NCBI GenBank assembly: GCA_014728085.1
Contig: WJMF01000179.1
Span: 1-64,000 of the forward strand
Direction of reading: 5' to 3'
Source of the DNA: Candidatus Zhuqueibacterota bacterium
Lineage (GTDB): Bacteria; Zhuqueibacterota; Zhuqueibacteria; Residuimicrobiales; Oceaniaggregativiventaceae
Length of the DNA: 64,000 nt
Part shown: in pieces, positions 33,966 through 51,232 of the stretch
How the letters are laid out: each line of letters begins with the position of its first letter
Numbering within the stretch: position 1 is the first letter of the stretch
Notes under the pieces: model-generated
The model's input: only the letters and a program-made list of their open reading frames with translations
What the model was told of the DNA's origin: nothing
Database searches by the model: none
Translations under genes and position numbers: made by a program

Positions 33966-34137
33966 AGACATGGGTAATTCCGGCCGGTAATGGCCCGGAA
34001 TAAGGAAGCCGGTGAAACTCCGGCGCTGCCCCGCAACTGTAAGCAGCTACAAAAGTCGCTGTACGCCACTGTCAAACTCAAATTGATGGGAAGGCGCGAC
34101 GAGTAGGTTGGAAGCTGCAAGCCAGGAGACCTGCCTG
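33966..34137 (+). promoter_or_regulatory. Cobalamin (vitamin B12) riboswitch
   Basis: The aptamer is clear: GGAAGCCGGTGAAACTCCGG, then GCTGCCCCGCAACTGTAAGC, then GCCACTG and the B12 box AAGCCAGGAGACCTGCC at 34119-34135. It senses adenosyl- or methylcobalamin and switches off downstream genes when B12 is plentiful. The downstream TonB receptor and beta-propeller genes are thus predicted to be B12 import genes. Confidence 0.96.
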
Positions 34138-34184
34138 TGGAATCTTTCGAGGGAAAGGCGTCGTTTTTAATACCTTTTATTTCT

Positions 34185-34215
34185 CCCAGCTTTTTCCCGA
34201 GGTTGGGATTTTTTT
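34185..34215 (+). terminator. Riboswitch-linked intrinsic terminator
   Basis: CCCAGC (34185-34190) pairs with GTTGGG (34202-34207), one wobble pair, followed by a T7 run at 34209-34215. It lies after the aptamer and 61 nt before the receptor start, where a B12-controlled terminator is expected. GGGAAA at 34151-34156 could pair with the loop TTTCCC at 34193-34198 as an antiterminator. Confidence 0.65.
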
Positions 34216-34275
34216 ATTCTCCTCCATTTTCCGCTGTGCAGCTCCTGGAAACATATCAATTTCAGGTGTTTAACG

Positions 34276-36492
34276 ATGCGCTGTATCGCCAGAGTCATCA
34301 TTTTGCTTTTCATATTTTTCGGATTTTTTTCTCTCCATGCTCAATCTACGGTCAAGATTAAAGGAACCGTTTTTTCGACCGATGGAACGCCTCTGCATGG
34401 AGCCAATGTCATCGTGGTCGGAACGGGTGTGGGCGCAGCAACAGATGCGAATGGACATTTTGCCATCGAGAATATTTTTGCCGGTGGCTATGCTTTGGAA
34501 GCGAGTTTTGTCGGCTATAAGAGTCGAATACAAAAAAATGTATATGTACAAAAGGATTTGATTGCCACCGTACATTTCAGGTTGACGCCCGTTGTTATTG
34601 CTCTGGATGAAATTACGATTACAGCACAGCAGGGTTTCGCAGAAACCAGTGATTTTTTGCAACGGATCGATCTGGCACAGATTCAAAACAGCACGGCGCG
34701 AACGGTTGGTGAATTGCTGGGCAACCTGGCAGGTGTGGATATTATCAACGAAGGCGGAGGAAGCGGCCGGAAGCGTATTTCAATACGGGGTAGCAATACC
34801 AATCAGGTTTTGGTTTTACTCGACGGCGTTCCTATGAATGATCCCCTTAGCGGTGAAATGGATCTCAATCAAATTCCTCTCTCCGGAGTCGAAGAAATAA
34901 GAGTGCTGAAAGGCGGTAACAGCAGTTTATACGGCAATGGCGCTATCGGCGGTGTGGTGGAAATCATCTCCAGAAGGGACGCGGTGGATCAAGTCCGCCT
35001 GGCAGGCCAGACCGGTCAATACGGTGCGTTGGGTATCCATCCCTCTGTTGCAGGACATGCTGGAGACATTCAATATTTTTTCGGCTATCAGGATTTAAAG
35101 GAAGAAGGGAACTACCCATACCGTTACAAAGGTCCGGATGGCACCACCCTGTCAGAATCGCGTTTGAATGCTGATTTTTCATCGCAAAACCTGTTCGGTA
35201 AAATCGCATTCGGAAGCGACCATCATTCGTTTCAACTGCAAACACATCTGTATACTTGTCAACGCGGTCTTCCCGGACTGGTTTATTCCTGGACACCGTT
35301 TGCCGAGGCAAAGACAAACCGGAAACTCTTTTTAGGACAGTATGTATTTCAAAACCAAAAACAGAGCACACGACTGACCTTTTCGCGCTATTTTAATGAG
35401 GTGGAATTTAAAAACAGACCCCCGGCCGATACACCATTGCGCTACCGCACAGTCCCTTCCTATCATTCTCTGTACCGAATTCTTACCTATCGGGGTAACC
35501 TCGAAAGCACATATCATTTTGGCCGCCAGCAGTCCATGCTGTTTCAGACCACAGTGCAGGGGGACAATTTTGAGGACAAAAATCTACTCACTCATTTTTC
35601 CGGCCCGATAAACCGAACCGATAATTTCACATACAGCGCGATGCTGAGAAATAAATGGCATTTGCCGAAACCGGCTTTTTTATCCGATCTGGTTATTTAT
35701 CATGCCTTGCGTTATGATTTCTTCTCCCTGACACAATCGAACAGCAAGCGCGAGGAGAAGCAGTTCAGTCCGCGGATCGGTGTGCTGTTTTCCCATCATA
35801 ATGGCTGGTTTTTTAATGTACGTGCCAATTGGGGGCGGTCCTTTCGGGTGCCGACATTTGCCGATCTGTTCTACCAGGATTTTCGAGTGAAGGGTAACGC
35901 TGACCTGCTTCCGGAAGAAAGCACGGATACCGATATTGGCTTGCAGATCGGCGTCCCCTGGTTCGGCTGGCTGGAGATCGGAAGCAATTACTTTCACCAT
36001 GATATCAAAAATCTGATCGTTTGGGAATTGGGGTCCTTTGCCACCTGGCAGCCGGGAAATACAGATGCACGGTTGCAGGGCTGGGAATGGAATGGATCGT
36101 GGCAGTTTTGGGATGACAGAGTGGAATTAAACTTCAGCCATGTTATTTTGAGTGCCCTGGATAAGAGCGGTCAGCGTACCCGGCATGATAAACAACTGGT
36201 TTACAGACCCGACTATACAACCAAATTGTCACTAAATCTGAATTTTGATAAAGTCGCGGTACAATACCATGGTCACCTGGTGGGTGAGCGTTATATAACA
36301 GCCTCGAATACCGTAAAACAACCGCCCTATAGCGTTGATAATCTCTTTGTCATTTTCAACCATGCATTTGAGCGGTTCAGGGTGAACTGGAAATTTTCAT
36401 TATATAATATTTTTAACGAGCATTATGAAATTGTTGAACATGCTCCTCTGCCGGGCAGGCATTGGCGAATCGGAATGGAAGTTATTTTTTAA
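34276..36492 (+). CDS. TonB-dependent receptor, probably BtuB-type cobalamin importer
   Basis: A 738-residue outer-membrane receptor. A signal peptide ends SLHAQ. Residues 25-110 are a carboxypeptidase-regulatory-like domain (GTVFSTDGTPLHGANV), residues about 115-235 the plug domain (IRGSNTNQVLVLLDGVPMND, GNGAIGGVVEIIS), and the remainder the beta-barrel ending in an aromatic-rich strand. Being behind a cobalamin riboswitch, its substrate is most likely B12 or a relative. The N-terminal extra domain is typical of FCB receptors. The next gene encodes a secreted beta-propeller protein. Confidence 0.92.
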   Translation: MRCIARVIILLFIFFGFFSLHAQSTVKIKGTVFSTDGTPLHGANVIVVGTGVGAATDANGHFAIENIFAGGYALEASFVGYKSRIQKNVYVQKDLIATVHFRLTPVVIALDEITITAQQGFAETSDFLQRIDLAQIQNSTARTVGELLGNLAGVDIINEGGGSGRKRISIRGSNTNQVLVLLDGVPMNDPLSGEMDLNQIPLSGVEEIRVLKGGNSSLYGNGAIGGVVEIISRRDAVDQVRLAGQTGQYGALGIHPSVAGHAGDIQYFFGYQDLKEEGNYPYRYKGPDGTTLSESRLNADFSSQNLFGKIAFGSDHHSFQLQTHLYTCQRGLPGLVYSWTPFAEAKTNRKLFLGQYVFQNQKQSTRLTFSRYFNEVEFKNRPPADTPLRYRTVPSYHSLYRILTYRGNLESTYHFGRQQSMLFQTTVQGDNFEDKNLLTHFSGPINRTDNFTYSAMLRNKWHLPKPAFLSDLVIYHALRYDFFSLTQSNSKREEKQFSPRIGVLFSHHNGWFFNVRANWGRSFRVPTFADLFYQDFRVKGNADLLPEESTDTDIGLQIGVPWFGWLEIGSNYFHHDIKNLIVWELGSFATWQPGNTDARLQGWEWNGSWQFWDDRVELNFSHVILSALDKSGQRTRHDKQLVYRPDYTTKLSLNLNFDKVAVQYHGHLVGERYITASNTVKQPPYSVDNLFVIFNHAFERFRVNWKFSLYNIFNEHYEIVEHAPLPGRHWRIGMEVIF

Positions 36493-36541
36493 ACATACTA
36501 TTGCTTAATACACCGTTATTCAATTGGAAAGGAAAAACATC

Positions 36542-38443
36542 ATGCGGAAAGTGACTATAGCGATACTCCTGGTGATAACCGGAATAACGATCTCATTCGC
36601 ACGGGATATCCCCAGAACGCTTTATGTGCTTAACGGGTTGGGACGAACCCTGTCAAAAATGAATCTGGATAATAAGACAATTGAAAATGATATTGCAATT
36701 GTCGGCGATATCCCGAACCGGCTTTACACCAGGGAAGACAAAATTTATGTACTCAATTCAACGCCTGCCAGCATTACGGTAATAGATGCGCATACCGATG
36801 CTGTGGAAAAAACGATTGTCCTGTTGGAGGGGGGCAATCCTTATGAAATGGCATTTGTGAGTGAGAACAGAGTCTATGTAACCAATTTGTTGGCGAACAC
36901 CATCTCTATTGTGAATCTCGAAAGCGGCGACATCGTTTACAGCATAGATGTCGGTATTGGGCCGGAAGGCATTCTGGTGGTCAACAATACTGCCTACGTT
37001 GCCAACAGCGGCGGATATCCGGATTACAGTGCCTCTACGGTTTCTGTTATCGATATCCGCAGCGATAAGGTGACAAAAACCCTTAGAGTACCGGCCAATC
37101 CCCAGGCTCTGGCCCTGGCGCCGGACGGAAGTATTCATGTTATTTGTAGTGGAAACTATGCAGATGTGAGCGGTAACGTAGCGATAATCGATCCCTATGG
37201 TGCTGATGACTGGACCGCTGCGGTTGTGGATACAGTGGAAATCGGCGGCATGCCCGGTGATATCGCCATTACTGATGCGGGAAAGGCTTTTTTGTCCGCC
37301 TATGGCAACGGCAGCCATGGGTTTCTTTATGCCTATGATGCATTAACGCTTCGGGTGTCCAACAGTGTCGCGAATCCCCTGCAGGTGGGAAAAGGTGCCA
37401 TGACTCTCTTTTTCGACCGGTTTGAAAATGAGCTGTATGTGTCCAATTTTGCGGATGACGCGGTGCAAAAGCTGGATCCGAATTCCGGCGATATACTCGA
37501 TACGTTTGGATTTGGTGATGGTGTACAGGACATGGCCGTTCTGGGGCCCATCAGCAGTTCCGATCCCTGGGCTGATTCGGTAGTCGCATTTACCCCGGGC
37601 GCTAACGCCGGCTTTGGTCAAAATTTTTTCCCCAGCAATGTGCTGGGCCCTCCCGATCCTGACCCGGTTCTGAGTTCCGTCAATCCGAGCTCCAAACCCC
37701 AGGAGCTGCTCTCCCTGGGGCATGGGGGTGAAATCGTTTTGGCGTTCAGCGATAATTATGTTGTTGATGCAGAAGGCGCTGATTTTATAGTGTTCGAGAA
37801 CGCCTATTATATCGGTGGCGATACGACACAGCCCTTTATAGAAGCCGCCAGGGTTGCGGTAAGTCAGGATGGCGAGAACTGGGTAGAGTTCCCCTGGGAT
37901 ACCACCACCTTTGCCGGGTTTGCCGGTGTCACCCCGACCAAAGACAATCAAAATCCCACCGATCCGAATGTTTCCGGTGGTGATGTTTTTGATCTGGCGG
38001 ATGTTGGATTATCCTGGGCGGCGTATATCAAATTGACCGACATTGGTGACTTGAAATCCGAGGGCGCCTGGAATGGCGATTTTGACCTGGATGCTGTCGT
38101 CGCTGTGAATAGCCAATCCGGACAGCCATCCCTTGTTGCCGCACCATCAGCGGCCGACATGCCGAAGATGATGACGCTGGAACAAAACTATCCGAATCCG
38201 TTTAATCCGCAGACACGTATTGAATTCGTAATCGCCAAACAAGACTGGATTGAGATAAAGGTTTATAATCTCGATGGGCAATTGGTTAAAACGCTGTTAC
38301 GCGGCCGGTATCCCGCCGGCCGGCATCAGGTACGGTGGGATGGTAAAAATGAAGAGTCTCGGCCGGTGGCCAGCGGTATATATTTATACGAAGTAAAGGC
38401 CGGTGCACATCGTCGGGTGAGGCAAATGACTCTGTTGCGATAA
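36542..38443 (+). CDS. Secreted beta-propeller protein with T9SS sorting domain, BtuG-like
   Basis: A 633-residue exported protein, started at ATG 36542 behind a GGAAAGGA site. A signal peptide ends ISFA. Residues 20-335 form a YncE-type beta-propeller with repeats such as RVYVTNLLANTISIVNL. Residues 345-535 form a second domain with an LGHGGEIVLAF strand and DFIVFENAYYIGG. The last 85 residues begin NYPNPFNPQTRIEF and are a FlgD-like T9SS sorting domain. In Bacteroides, BtuG is a YncE-type propeller that caps BtuB and binds B12 tightly. Gene order here fits that role, but homology to BtuG itself is an inference. It has no lipobox, so surface attachment would use T9SS. Confidence 0.85.
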   Translation: MRKVTIAILLVITGITISFARDIPRTLYVLNGLGRTLSKMNLDNKTIENDIAIVGDIPNRLYTREDKIYVLNSTPASITVIDAHTDAVEKTIVLLEGGNPYEMAFVSENRVYVTNLLANTISIVNLESGDIVYSIDVGIGPEGILVVNNTAYVANSGGYPDYSASTVSVIDIRSDKVTKTLRVPANPQALALAPDGSIHVICSGNYADVSGNVAIIDPYGADDWTAAVVDTVEIGGMPGDIAITDAGKAFLSAYGNGSHGFLYAYDALTLRVSNSVANPLQVGKGAMTLFFDRFENELYVSNFADDAVQKLDPNSGDILDTFGFGDGVQDMAVLGPISSSDPWADSVVAFTPGANAGFGQNFFPSNVLGPPDPDPVLSSVNPSSKPQELLSLGHGGEIVLAFSDNYVVDAEGADFIVFENAYYIGGDTTQPFIEAARVAVSQDGENWVEFPWDTTTFAGFAGVTPTKDNQNPTDPNVSGGDVFDLADVGLSWAAYIKLTDIGDLKSEGAWNGDFDLDAVVAVNSQSGQPSLVAAPSAADMPKMMTLEQNYPNPFNPQTRIEFVIAKQDWIEIKVYNLDGQLVKTLLRGRYPAGRHQVRWDGKNEESRPVASGIYLYEVKAGAHRRVRQMTLLR

Positions 38444-38461: not shown

Positions 38462-38512
38462 ATGGCGTTGTCAACCTGTTTTAAAATAGTAATGGCAGCG
38501 CCGTTTTTTTTT
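38462..38512 (+). terminator. Intrinsic terminator of the B12 operon
   Basis: ATGGCGTTGTCA (38462-38473) pairs fully, with G-U wobbles, with TGGCAGCGCCGT (38493-38504), and a T9 run follows. It lies 18 nt after the stop of the propeller gene. Confidence 0.85.
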
Positions 38513-46907: not shown

Positions 46908-48005
46908 ATGAAGAAATTAATTGTGTTATTCGTACTCGCTGCAGTTGCTTTTTTACCGGTTGCGGAATCATATGCTGTCAGCGAAGCTGCTGTACTGTTC
47001 CTGATGATATCGCCGGGTGCCCGTGCAGCGGGAATGGGTGAAGCCTTTGTGGCTTTGGCGGATGACGCAACTGCGGTTTTCTGGAATCCTGCCGGTCTCG
47101 CTTTTCAGCAGGGTCGCGAACTTACGCTTATGCATGCGAATTGGCTGCCTCAATTCGGTTCCGATCTCTTTTATGAATTTGGTGCTTACCGGCATTCAAT
47201 AGAAGGATTGGGTACGTTCGGATTGAATTTGACATTTCTTAACCTCGGCAAGCAGTATATCACCGGGGAAGACAGTCCGCTGATTCTTGGAGAATTCAGC
47301 AGTTATGAATTTGCTGTTTCAGCGACTTATGGAACCCGTATTCAGGAAAACTGGGCCGTTGGTCTCGGACTTCGGTATATTCGCTCCAATCTTTCCAGCG
47401 TCGGCGCCGGTGCGGAAAAAGGCGATGGCAGAGCCAATGCATTTGCCTTTGATCTTGCCACTCTTTATAAATTTCCGTTTATGCCGCGATTGAGTTTTGG
47501 ATTGAATCTGTCCAACCTGGGTCCCAAAATTACCTATGTCGATGCCTCACAGGCAGACCCCCTGCCCACCAATCTGAAAATGGGATTTGCATACAAAGCG
47601 GTAGAGAATCAATACAACAAACTGACGTTTGTCGCCGACATGAACAAGCTTATGGTTAACCGCCACGAAGATGGTACTTCTGATCCCTTTTATGAAGCCA
47701 TTTTTACTTCTCCCTGGACCATTGTGGAAAAAGAAAAACAGAATATCGGTTCGGAAGATGAAGAGGTGGTCAGCGAAACCAAGGTTTTTAATGGTATTAT
47801 CAGCGGTGGTGTTGAATATTGGTACAGCGATCTTATTTCATTGCGCGCTGGTTATTACTGGGATAAACCGGGTAAAGTCGAATTTACCTCTTTTGGTGCC
47901 GGTATCCAATATCATCTGTATCGATTTGATTTTGGTTATGTCTCCGCTGCAGAGGGTCACCCGTTGGCCAATACCATGCGTTTTTCTCTGACTATTGGTT
48001 TCTAA
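46908..48005 (+). CDS. PorV/PorQ family outer-membrane protein
   Basis: A 365-residue protein with a signal peptide ending SYA. The mature start SEAAVLFLMISPGARAAGMGEAFVALADD and DATAVFWNPAGLA are hallmarks of the PorV/UPF0164 family. Repeated amphipathic strands, ending in FSLTIGF with a terminal Phe, fit an outer-membrane barrel. PorV carries T9SS cargo from the secretion pore to the surface in Porphyromonas. GGAGG precedes the ATG. The next gene encodes a protein with a T9SS sorting tail, a likely client. Confidence 0.88.
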   Translation: MKKLIVLFVLAAVAFLPVAESYAVSEAAVLFLMISPGARAAGMGEAFVALADDATAVFWNPAGLAFQQGRELTLMHANWLPQFGSDLFYEFGAYRHSIEGLGTFGLNLTFLNLGKQYITGEDSPLILGEFSSYEFAVSATYGTRIQENWAVGLGLRYIRSNLSSVGAGAEKGDGRANAFAFDLATLYKFPFMPRLSFGLNLSNLGPKITYVDASQADPLPTNLKMGFAYKAVENQYNKLTFVADMNKLMVNRHEDGTSDPFYEAIFTSPWTIVEKEKQNIGSEDEEVVSETKVFNGIISGGVEYWYSDLISLRAGYYWDKPGKVEFTSFGAGIQYHLYRFDFGYVSAAEGHPLANTMRFSLTIGF

Positions 48006-48022: not shown

Positions 48023-48060
48023 GCGGGATAAAGCTGTTTTTGCTTTATCCCGCCTTTTTT
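48023..48060 (+). terminator. Intrinsic terminator after the PorV-like gene
   Basis: GCGGGATAAAGC (48023-48034) pairs perfectly with GCTTTATCCCGC (48042-48053), and a T6 run follows. It separates the PorV-like gene from the next gene. Confidence 0.9.
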
Positions 48061-48097
48061 GAGGCAGTTAACCCCAAAACATGCACACAGGCTTGAC

Positions 48098-51000
48098 GTG
48101 AATTTGAAAAGTATATTTTATTTGACCGTCTTTTCGGCGTTTCTCTTGGGCATTATAACCATATCCCCATCGGCAACGCAATCGAGTTCCGCATTATCTG
48201 ATCAGGATTTGCTTGGCGTTCATCAACGCTTTTTTCTTGACAGAGAAATGGGGATAAAATCAACAGCGGATACGTTGCGTATTGCTGTTATTCGGGTGGA
48301 GTTTGTAGAAGACCAGGTGGAAACCACCACGGGAAATGGTCTCTTCGATCTGTCAAGCGAAAGCGATTACAGCATCGATCCCCCCCCCCATAATAAAAAT
48401 TATTTTGAGCATCAGCTGCTGGCGCTGCGCAACTATTTTAAAACGGCTTCAAATCACCATCTTGAGCTTTTTTTTGATGTTTATCCCGAAGAAGAGAATT
48501 CATCCTATTCGCTTCCGCATGATATGGTTTATTATAGCGGCGAAGAAGATGTAGAAAAACAAAAATTGCGCTGGGCTGAACTGATGCAGGATGCATTGCA
48601 GGCGGCGGATGACCAGATTGATTATGGTCAATATGACATTTATATGATCTTTCATGCCGGTGTCGGCAATGATTTTGCTTTTGATTTCGATGCCACGCCT
48701 TATGATATCCAGTCCGCATTTATCGATTATGAAACCCTGCAAGAGACGCTTGGTAACGGTTCTTCCGGCTTTGCAGGAATCGAGACGGCTGAACGGGCGA
48801 TCAGGGAAGCCATTATCCTTCCTGAAACTCAAAATCAGGAAGGTTATGATATCGGCCTGCTCGGATCCATGACGCTGTTGATGGCGAGCCAACTCGGTAT
48901 GCCAAGTCTCTTCGATACGGAAACAGGGCGTGCGGGAATCGGCCAATGGGGTCTGATGGATCAGGGGTCCAATAATTTTCAGGGTCTGATACCCAGCCAG
49001 CCATGTGCCTGGACGAAACTTTTTATGGGGTGGCAGCAACCCATTGAAATATCGATCGGTGAAAACATCCCGGTCGGTGCCCCGCAAAGCAGCGGACATC
49101 AAATATATAAAATTCCCATTACTCAAACAGAATACTATCTCGTCGAAAACCGGCAAAAGGATTTCAATGGCGACGGTTATGCGTTTGGTCGCGATGCCAA
49201 TGGAAATCGCGCTGAATTCGACACTACCGGTCAGGTCCTCCTTGAAGAAAATACAGGCGTTCTGGTGCGAATTGATGAATATGATTTTGGTATACCGGGA
49301 TCGGGTGTTCTGGTATGGCATATCGATGAAACGGTAATCGAACAAAACCTGGCTCAAAACACGATCAATAACAATCGTGAGCATCGCGGCGTCGATCTGG
49401 TCGAGTGTGACGGCGCTCAGGATATCGGTTACTATTATGACCTCTTTGATCCCGGATATGGAGCGGAAACAGGAGATTATTTCGACCCCTACTGGTCAGG
49501 AAATGAATCTCATAAAATCGTAAACGATACGGCAGTGGTCGAATTTTCCTCTTCCAGCATTCCCGCCAGCAAAACATCTGATGGCGCTTTTACCCATATA
49601 AAATTGTTCGATTTCAGCCGGCGCGACAGTGTTATGACATTCTCTCTGCAATCTGAACTGCGGGTGAATGGGTTTCCACAGGCGATTGGAAAAGGCCGCC
49701 GCGTTGGCTCTCTGCTGGCCATTCCACGACCAGAGGGTGCTCTAATCGCTGCCGCGAGCAGCTGCGGTGAGGTGATGATCTGGCAGCGCGACGGAGAAAA
49801 GCTGATCGAAAACGGGCGTACCGTGTCATATACAAACACGATGAAGGAAACAAATGTATATCCCTGGGCGGTTGCATTTGAGGTGGCTGACTCGGTGCAT
49901 TTGCCTCTGGCGGCAACCGAGTCCTGTAAACAATTGGTGCTCGCCGGTAACTCGGGTGTTGTCTGGATTCTCAATTTGGCTGACGAGAATCAGGACGGCT
50001 ATGCGGATATCCATTCTCAAATTGATTTGCAAAAAAAACCGACAGCAGGGCCGCTGGTCTTGCCGGCCTTCGGCAATGCACAGGGTTCTTTAATCGTCAT
50101 TGCTGCTGAAGACGGTACTCTTTTTTCTCTTGCGCTCAATCCGGAAAATCAGTATGAGATAAAAAATCAGAATCAGATCGATCAGCGTCGAATAACGGCT
50201 CTGGCCTATGGCGGCTCGGACCAAAACGCCATTATTGCTGCTTCGGAAACAGCGAATCTATATGCCCTGGACACAGACCTGAACATAACCTGGCAGCATA
50301 AATTGGCTGCAAGCTCGGGCGATTTTCAGCCCCTGGTGGCCGATTTTGACGGCAACCGTGGTTACGAGATTTTTGTGGTTTCCAACAGCGGTGAGATGTT
50401 CGCTTTATCGTCGGCTGGTGAGCCGGAGATCGGCAGTCAAGCCGGCCATAACCGGGATCGCCATAGCGCCCCGGCTCTCGCCGATATCGACCGGGACGGC
50501 TTGCCGGAAATTCTCTATCATTCCCACTATGGCCTGGTCGCTCTAAACTGGACCGGAAGTTCTGCAACCAATTACCCCTATTCCTATTTCCTCGAACCGG
50601 ATTCTCTCGGCTTTTTTCATTCATCGCCACTCTGGAGCGGCGGTCAAAATGGTCAACTCGTTACCATAACGCCTTCCGGAAGGTTGTATAGCCTTGATCA
50701 AACCGGACGCATGACAAGCGGTTTTCCTTTACCGGGGGGAATGGATGGTGATGCTTCGCCGGCCATGATCGATCTCGACGAAGATGGTGATGTTGAAGTT
50801 CTGAACATATCCGCTGACGGCTTTATCTATGCCTGGAATTTGTCGATCGAAAACACGCCCGCTTCATCATGGTATCAGGTCGGGCGGGATGCCTTTCGCC
50901 GCTTTTTTGTTCCCGGCGACCAGCAACCTGTTATCGAGCAGGACAATTTAATGCCGGCAAAAACCGTTTTTTGTTATCCCAATCCAACCTACGAAGCAGT

Positions 51001-51232
51001 GACCTATATACGTTATACCCTGTCGCAAACCACAGAGCGGGTTTCTATACGCATTTATGATCTGAGCGGCGAATTTGTTCAAGACCTGCAAGCCAATGGC
51101 ATAACACCGGGTGTACATGAGGTGCCCTGGACCGTGGAACGGCTGCAAAGCGGTGTATACCTTGCTAGGGTTGAGGCATTTACCGCACAAGAGAGCGCTT
51201 TTAAAATTATAAAAATTGCAGTGATAAAGTGA
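48098..51232 (+). CDS. M6-protease-like secreted protein without HExxH, with propeller and T9SS domain
   Basis: A roughly 1044-residue exported protein. The GTG at 48098 starts a hydrophobic signal sequence. Upstream in-frame codons begin inside the preceding terminator. Residues about 60-530 match the M6-like metalloprotease region, including the conserved LGMPSLFDTETGRAGIGQWGLMDQGS and GSGVLVWHIDE. The zinc motif HEFGH is replaced by LLMAS at residues 260-264, so it should not be an active protease. A repeat-rich beta-propeller follows (about 540-950), with ADIDRDGLPEILY-type FG-GAP motifs. The last 90 residues are a T9SS sorting domain (CYPNPTYEAVTY). A C10 tract lies at 48380-48389. Confidence 0.8.
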   Translation: MNLKSIFYLTVFSAFLLGIITISPSATQSSSALSDQDLLGVHQRFFLDREMGIKSTADTLRIAVIRVEFVEDQVETTTGNGLFDLSSESDYSIDPPPHNKNYFEHQLLALRNYFKTASNHHLELFFDVYPEEENSSYSLPHDMVYYSGEEDVEKQKLRWAELMQDALQAADDQIDYGQYDIYMIFHAGVGNDFAFDFDATPYDIQSAFIDYETLQETLGNGSSGFAGIETAERAIREAIILPETQNQEGYDIGLLGSMTLLMASQLGMPSLFDTETGRAGIGQWGLMDQGSNNFQGLIPSQPCAWTKLFMGWQQPIEISIGENIPVGAPQSSGHQIYKIPITQTEYYLVENRQKDFNGDGYAFGRDANGNRAEFDTTGQVLLEENTGVLVRIDEYDFGIPGSGVLVWHIDETVIEQNLAQNTINNNREHRGVDLVECDGAQDIGYYYDLFDPGYGAETGDYFDPYWSGNESHKIVNDTAVVEFSSSSIPASKTSDGAFTHIKLFDFSRRDSVMTFSLQSELRVNGFPQAIGKGRRVGSLLAIPRPEGALIAAASSCGEVMIWQRDGEKLIENGRTVSYTNTMKETNVYPWAVAFEVADSVHLPLAATESCKQLVLAGNSGVVWILNLADENQDGYADIHSQIDLQKKPTAGPLVLPAFGNAQGSLIVIAAEDGTLFSLALNPENQYEIKNQNQIDQRRITALAYGGSDQNAIIAASETANLYALDTDLNITWQHKLAASSGDFQPLVADFDGNRGYEIFVVSNSGEMFALSSAGEPEIGSQAGHNRDRHSAPALADIDRDGLPEILYHSHYGLVALNWTGSSATNYPYSYFLEPDSLGFFHSSPLWSGGQNGQLVTITPSGRLYSLDQTGRMTSGFPLPGGMDGDASPAMIDLDEDGDVEVLNISADGFIYAWNLSIENTPASSWYQVGRDAFRRFFVPGDQQPVIEQDNLMPAKTVFCYPNPTYEAVTYIRYTLSQTTERVSIRIYDLSGEFVQDLQANGITPGVHEVPWTVERLQSGVYLARVEAFTAQESAFKIIKIAVIK
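48380..48389 (+). repeat. C10 homopolymer tract in coding sequence
   Basis: A run of ten C encodes three prolines (DPPPH) early in the M6-like gene. Gain or loss of one base would shift the frame and end the protein early, a pattern used for phase variation in some surface genes. It could equally be a sequencing error site. Confidence 0.6.

Follow-up and report, generated by a model that had tools for sequence, protein, structure and literature searches.

We describe an operon led by a cobalamin riboswitch that very probably encodes a system for the uptake of vitamin B12 (corrinoids) across the outer membrane, combining a BtuB-type receptor with a capture protein that resembles BtuG and BtuH and is predicted to be exported by the type IX secretion system (T9SS). 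The operon lies in the window, i.e., the whole stretch of 64,000 nucleotides that was analysed from a Candidatus Zhuqueibacterota genome, and its riboswitch, terminator, receptor gene and third gene are all on the same (+) strand, to which the window coordinates below refer. The best structural relatives of the receptor and of the accessory protein include both chains of one complex, BtuB1-BtuG1 of Bacteroides thetaiotaomicron (8blw).

The leader RNA contains a cobalamin riboswitch aptamer (RF00174, 33955-34152), detected by covariance model (cmscan) over the full model (positions 1-189) with 97.9 bits (E 3.2e-23, curated cut-off 31.5 bits). It is the sole RF00174 match in the 5.19-Mb assembly. 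The expression platform is an intrinsic terminator hairpin (34184-34208), a 10-pair stem followed by TTTTTTT, with an energy of -12.9 kcal/mol (z -3.2) that was equalled in none of 200 shuffles. A candidate anti-terminator (34145-34202, with arms at about 34145-34159 and 34189-34202) appears in the minimum-energy fold of positions 34142-34206 at -14.9 kcal/mol, an energy within the ordinary range (z only -0.9), and this pairing would exclude the terminator hairpin. Since the energy is not unusual, we only infer an off-switch mechanism, by which the operon would be off in the presence of B12. A terminator-like hairpin behind the third gene (38491-38505, a 6-pair stem and then a T run) may close the operon; its pattern alone is no rarer than among shuffles.

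The receptor gene (34276-36492) encodes a BtuB-like TonB-dependent receptor of 738 amino acids. Residues 88-734 align with BtuB1 (8blw_A, E 4.7e-21), the top PDB relative, which is followed by BtuB of E. coli; in the alignment, the C-terminal stretch NEHYEIVEHAPLPGRHWRI pairs with NRNYEIVKNFPMPGRSVRV. The N-terminal part comprises a CarboxypepD_reg-like domain (CarbopepD_reg_2) and a TonB Plug. The best NCBIfam model is TIGR01779 (TonB-B12), and because its cut-off is missed (152.5 bits, cut-off 599.7) we name the receptor "BtuB-like"; cobalamin transport is its putative function. The original prediction had placed a TonB receptor behind a cobalamin riboswitch and a terminator, and the nearly full-length alignment with BtuB1, together with the RF00174 score and the stability of the hairpin, bears this out.

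The third gene (36542-38443) encodes the putative B12-capture protein, a fusion of 633 amino acids composed of a signal peptide, a BtuG-like propeller, a BtuH-like domain and a T9SS tail. The ATG at 36542 is the likely start (the open reading frame list had a TTG at 36524) and the stop codon ends at 38443. Family matches to a YncE/DUF5074-type propeller and to a Por_Secre_tail/FlgD_ig-like tail agree with the expected joining of a YncE-type propeller, a second domain and a T9SS tail in one protein. The AlphaFold2 model of the full protein, built on an alignment of 27 sequences, has a mean pLDDT of 88.4, and disorder is restricted to the signal peptide and to residues 531-555, the linker ahead of the tail. 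The top PDB match of this full-length model is BtuG1 (8blw_B, E 4e-22), over 635 columns that cover both domains, and the identity across the structural match is 19%.

The propeller (residues 24-338, 36611-37555) is modelled with pLDDT mostly above 90. BtuG entries account for 16 of the 17 top PDB matches of the model (3dsm counted), and the best YncE match (1.2e-10) trails by four orders of magnitude or more; the BtuG likeness that had been anticipated is thus recovered by a structural comparison that ranks BtuG above every other propeller. The sequence profile of the propeller gives a different order, with an S-layer propeller of the YVTN type from an archaeon (1l0q, E 1e-43 over four repeat stretches) ahead of BtuG1 (E 6e-22). 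Because the sequence profile favours 1l0q, the BtuG assignment rests on fold, genomic context and fusion together. The propeller is BtuG-like without being a BtuG lipoprotein, with putative roles in B12 binding and in docking to BtuB.

The second domain (residues 343-530, 37568-38131), to which the original prediction gave no name, is a BtuH-like jelly roll. When its profile was compared with the whole PDB, a single chain was matched, BtuG1 (8blw_B, residues 427-499, E 0.0016, 68 positions), and the matched region falls in the C-terminal extension of BtuG1 that is homologous to BtuH2 (PMC10404256). Modelled alone (pLDDT 87.7), the domain retrieves 8blw_B as the second-ranked fold match and BtuH2 (7biz_B) with a probability of 1.00. 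The fold match to BtuH is moderate (TM 0.51 by query length), and carbohydrate-binding discoidin-like jelly rolls score about equally. Given the weak sequence link and these comparable discoidin matches, another ligand is possible. Pfam gave no convincing match for any of 33 second-domain sequences, and DUF4465, the domain of BtuJ, was absent from all 33 at E values up to 10, and this assignment was rejected. From sequence and model, we consider the second domain a distant BtuH homologue with putative B12 binding, which makes the fused protein analogous to BtuG1 of B. thetaiotaomicron specifically and not to a simple BtuG. All 33 second domains also match part of the NF033170 model (best 4e-10), which describes the Leptospira LIC_13355 lipoprotein family. 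The LIC_13355 lipoprotein has been examined as a laminin and plasminogen binder with B12 unmentioned (PMC11891782), and may be a BtuH-like domain protein.

The two ends of the fused protein set its predicted anchor. The signal peptide MRKVTIAILLVITGITISFA (36542-36607, read from the translation, with a predicted helix at residues 2-18) has no cysteine, and therefore no lipobox, and the first propeller strand of the model begins at residue 26, a few residues past the likely cleavage site. At the other end, residues 545-633 (38174-38440) form a T9SS type-A C-terminal sorting tail, which matches TIGR04183 with 28.5 bits (32.4 bits in the genome-wide search, cut-off 23). The genome encodes the T9SS core components SprA (657 bits), PorU (910 bits) and PorV (114 bits, within the window at 46977-47660), as expected under the T9SS route that had been proposed for this protein, and contains at least 150 T9SS tail matches. 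We therefore classify the fused protein as a T9SS type-A cargo, whose export and surface attachment are predicted. The genome's best PorV match (46908-48005 in the window) directly precedes an open reading frame for a T9SS-tailed protein of 1057 amino acids (48059-51232).

This anchor bears on how the ligand might be transferred. BtuG homologues are nearly all lipoproteins (PMC6143338), and the linker of BtuB2G2, which follows the barrel from the lipidated cysteine onwards, has been proposed as a hinge (PMC10404256). With a C-terminal anchor, any hinge would presumably differ from that of BtuB2G2. If the lipid-linked hinge of the 'pedal-bin' complex BtuBG is absent, transfer might be mechanically different; we tentatively raise the possibility, which we regard as doubtful, of a T9SS-displayed antenna with two sites whose attachment to BtuB is not permanent, or relies on protein contacts only.

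Next we consider the 82 genomes of the phylum that were compared, the phylum being mostly candidate division KSB1. A query of propeller plus second domain was matched in 38 of the 82 genomes at E <= 1e-10, partial and propeller-only matches included. The order riboswitch, receptor, fused protein on the same strand is found in all 25 full-length relatives with enough upstream contig, with gaps (window included) of 109-500 bases between riboswitch and receptor (median 161) and of 27-947 bases between receptor and fusion gene (median 80). A chance arrangement is excluded by this retention of order and strand. Conservation of the trio had been named as a check of the original prediction and is seen in every assessable relative; the concern that related genomes might carry the gene away from B12 control found no case among the assessable full-length relatives. 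Two relatives (L046 and L065) contain a pattern resembling a lipobox that was dismissed: both proteins are T9SS-tailed, and the signal peptide of the former is an ordinary one with AIAQ at its end.

Other arrangements occur within the same phylum. In one family (f12, loci L032-L034), the riboswitch is followed by a T9SS-tailed second-domain protein, the receptor and a separate propeller, and the propeller open reading frames have a plausible lipobox cysteine (e.g., IASGCVRDP) and no tail. Two of these operons contain an extra T9SS-tailed protein of about 800 amino acids behind the lipoprotein propeller (L032:4886-7297 and L033:5530-7992), with long similarity to propellers. At a further locus (L038), riboswitch and receptor are followed by a lipoprotein propeller, and at another (L036) riboswitch and BtuB are followed by a T9SS-tailed propeller without the second domain. 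In many other genomes of the phylum, a riboswitch leads a receptor, and neither a propeller nor a second-domain match accompanies them. In this one phylum, BtuB therefore occurs by itself, next to a lipoprotein propeller or next to a T9SS-tagged fusion, which provides a natural series bearing on the role of the lid.

Elsewhere in the phylum, according to our reading of the open reading frames, cobalamin riboswitches lead a receptor with BtuF/BtuC-like genes, class II ribonucleotide reductase or CobT, and these downstream genes support the riboswitch as a B12 sensor in the phylum. Class II ribonucleotide reductase-like open reading frames follow second cobalamin riboswitches at L180:473-3040 and L195:406-3099 (riboswitch strand). 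Overall, a cobalamin riboswitch was detected in 71 of the 82 genomes, mostly one in each, and CbiC in none of the 82. The genome of the window has six B12-binding-domain matches above cut-off. Dependence on imported corrinoids fits the absence of CbiC matches and the presence of these domains, and the operon points to a principal path by which corrinoids could enter cells of this phylum. BtuC was not found in the window's genome, where the two FecCD matches are both weak; the one inspected was rejected as BtuC, being a zinc-type permease that adjoins a zinc-type binding protein.

Relatives of the second domain are encoded at 360 places of the genome collection. The best 80 of these 360, which were examined, belong to KSB1, Zixibacteria, Gemmatimonadota, Fermentibacterota, Kapabacteria, Ignavibacteria, Myxococcota and others. 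A cobalamin riboswitch motif was found in 57 of the 80 loci, versus 2 matches in shuffled copies; these calls are based on the motif and not on the covariance model, and the motif search recovers 31 of 31 Rfam-confirmed sites. The motif-bearing loci mostly adjoin receptors and propellers. A Gemmatimonadota protein (L081:5855-7771) shares the fused core, but its C-terminus is dockerin-like and not a T9SS tail. Eight Fermentibacterota loci (L101, L104, L105, L109, L112, L113, L115 and L118) have the riboswitch motif with propeller and second-domain genes and no receptor match nearby, and could possibly represent a B12-capture pair without BtuB.

In a tree of 79 propellers, the T9SS-tagged fusions fall in one group (34 rows, support 100/99), which takes in Zixibacteria and Gemmatimonadota copies as well as a few unfused propellers and is distinct from lipoproteins of the Bacteroidota/Ignavibacteriota type. 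Near the base of this group, further lipoprotein propellers split off with moderate support (90/86 and 94/92). A switch of anchor is likely, and on this midpoint-rooted tree it could have gone either way.

We propose that, at low cellular cobalamin, the leader RNA would be read through the terminator and the receptor and the surface protein would be made. The signal peptide would direct the fused protein to the periplasm, and its C-terminal tail would route it to the type IX system (SprA/PorV) for passage through the outer membrane; PorU would then probably free it from the tail and fix it to the surface. At the surface it would catch corrinoids and deliver them to the receptor, which would import them with the help of TonB. 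The presumed steps are binding of corrinoids by either of the two domains, docking to the receptor, and cleavage and anchoring of the tail.

The propeller could instead be a generic T9SS-exported surface protein of the YVTN/YncE type, perhaps structural or adhesive, that is co-transcribed by chance and has no role in B12 capture. Raw sequence scores favour such a YncE/S-layer propeller, the best profile match being the archaeal one; the abundance of T9SS tails in the genome and the many riboswitch-BtuB loci of the phylum without a propeller point the same way. However, fold, context and fusion partner speak against it: BtuG stands at least four orders of magnitude above YncE in the structural ranking, all 25 assessable relatives lie behind BtuB under the riboswitch, and the propeller is fused to a BtuH-like domain. 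We give this reading very little weight.

A narrower alternative keeps B12 capture and assigns binding to the BtuH-like domain only, leaving the propeller as a scaffold or as a non-binding dock for BtuB. In the closest relatives, the second domain is indeed more conserved than the propeller (71-78% versus 57-63% identity), it forms a T9SS-tagged protein of its own in f12, and it recurs in riboswitch-led loci across many phyla. This division of labour is nevertheless rather unlikely, given that the propeller and the BtuH domain of B. thetaiotaomicron both bind B12 (PMC10404256; PMC8941943) and that a propeller without the second domain follows riboswitch and BtuB in L036 and L038. The second domain could also be a discoidin-type carbohydrate-binding module that serves as a glycan anchor and does not bind B12, as suggested by discoidin/CBM32 entries among the best fold matches. 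BtuH itself ranks among the same matches, so they are no argument for a sugar ligand; moreover, the sequence profile finds no PDB entry other than BtuG1, which it matches in the BtuH domain, and relatives of the domain cluster with cobalamin riboswitches, by motif, far beyond the shuffled expectation. A glycan anchor is in our view quite improbable, and we retain B12 capture by a BtuG/BtuH-like surface protein as the preferred reading.

Among known systems, BtuB1-BtuG1 of B. thetaiotaomicron (8blw, PMC10404256) is closest, as it likewise combines a B12 riboswitch locus, a BtuB receptor and a protein made of a propeller and a BtuH domain; BtuG1 carries two B12-binding sites (PMC10404256). The phylum differs and identity is low, and whereas BtuG1 is an N-terminal lipoprotein, the window protein has a signal peptide that lacks a lipobox, is followed by the propeller with hardly any linker between them, and ends in a T9SS tail. 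BtuG2 and BtuG3 (8bmx, 8okv, 8p97; PMC6143338) match the propeller in fold (TM 0.75-0.80 by target length) and likewise have a gene adjoining btuB under a B12 riboswitch, but they lack the BtuH domain and the T9SS tail present here, and their lipid-anchored N-terminal linker along BtuB has no counterpart in the window protein. BtuH2 (7biz; PMC8941943) is related in fold to the second domain, too dissimilar for a direct sequence match, and differs in being a surface lipoprotein with Ig-like domains. BtuJ1 and BtuJ2 (PMC13398666) also have jelly-roll B12-binding domains tied to TonB receptors and DUF5074-type propellers, but their domain is DUF4465, which matches none of the 33 second domains. 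The propeller-BtuH fusion of BtuG1, BtuH and DUF4465 are thus already known. BtuG has been reported as a surface lipoprotein exclusive to Bacteroidetes (PMC6143338), and we found no description of a T9SS-tagged BtuG/BtuH protein in the open-licence literature, in keeping with the original view of this layout as undescribed, although an account elsewhere is possible. A single paper of this literature contains both BtuG and T9SS terms, and there BtuG appears only among the cited references. What is new is the form predicted to be displayed by T9SS and the spread outside Bacteroidota. The BtuB-BtuG-BtuH layout extends through KSB1 and neighbouring phyla with another, predicted route of surface delivery, natural pairs with a lipoprotein, a T9SS-tagged protein or none allow tests of the lid role, and lipoprotein-assisted import becomes one case of a wider scheme of a surface protein plus a TonB receptor.
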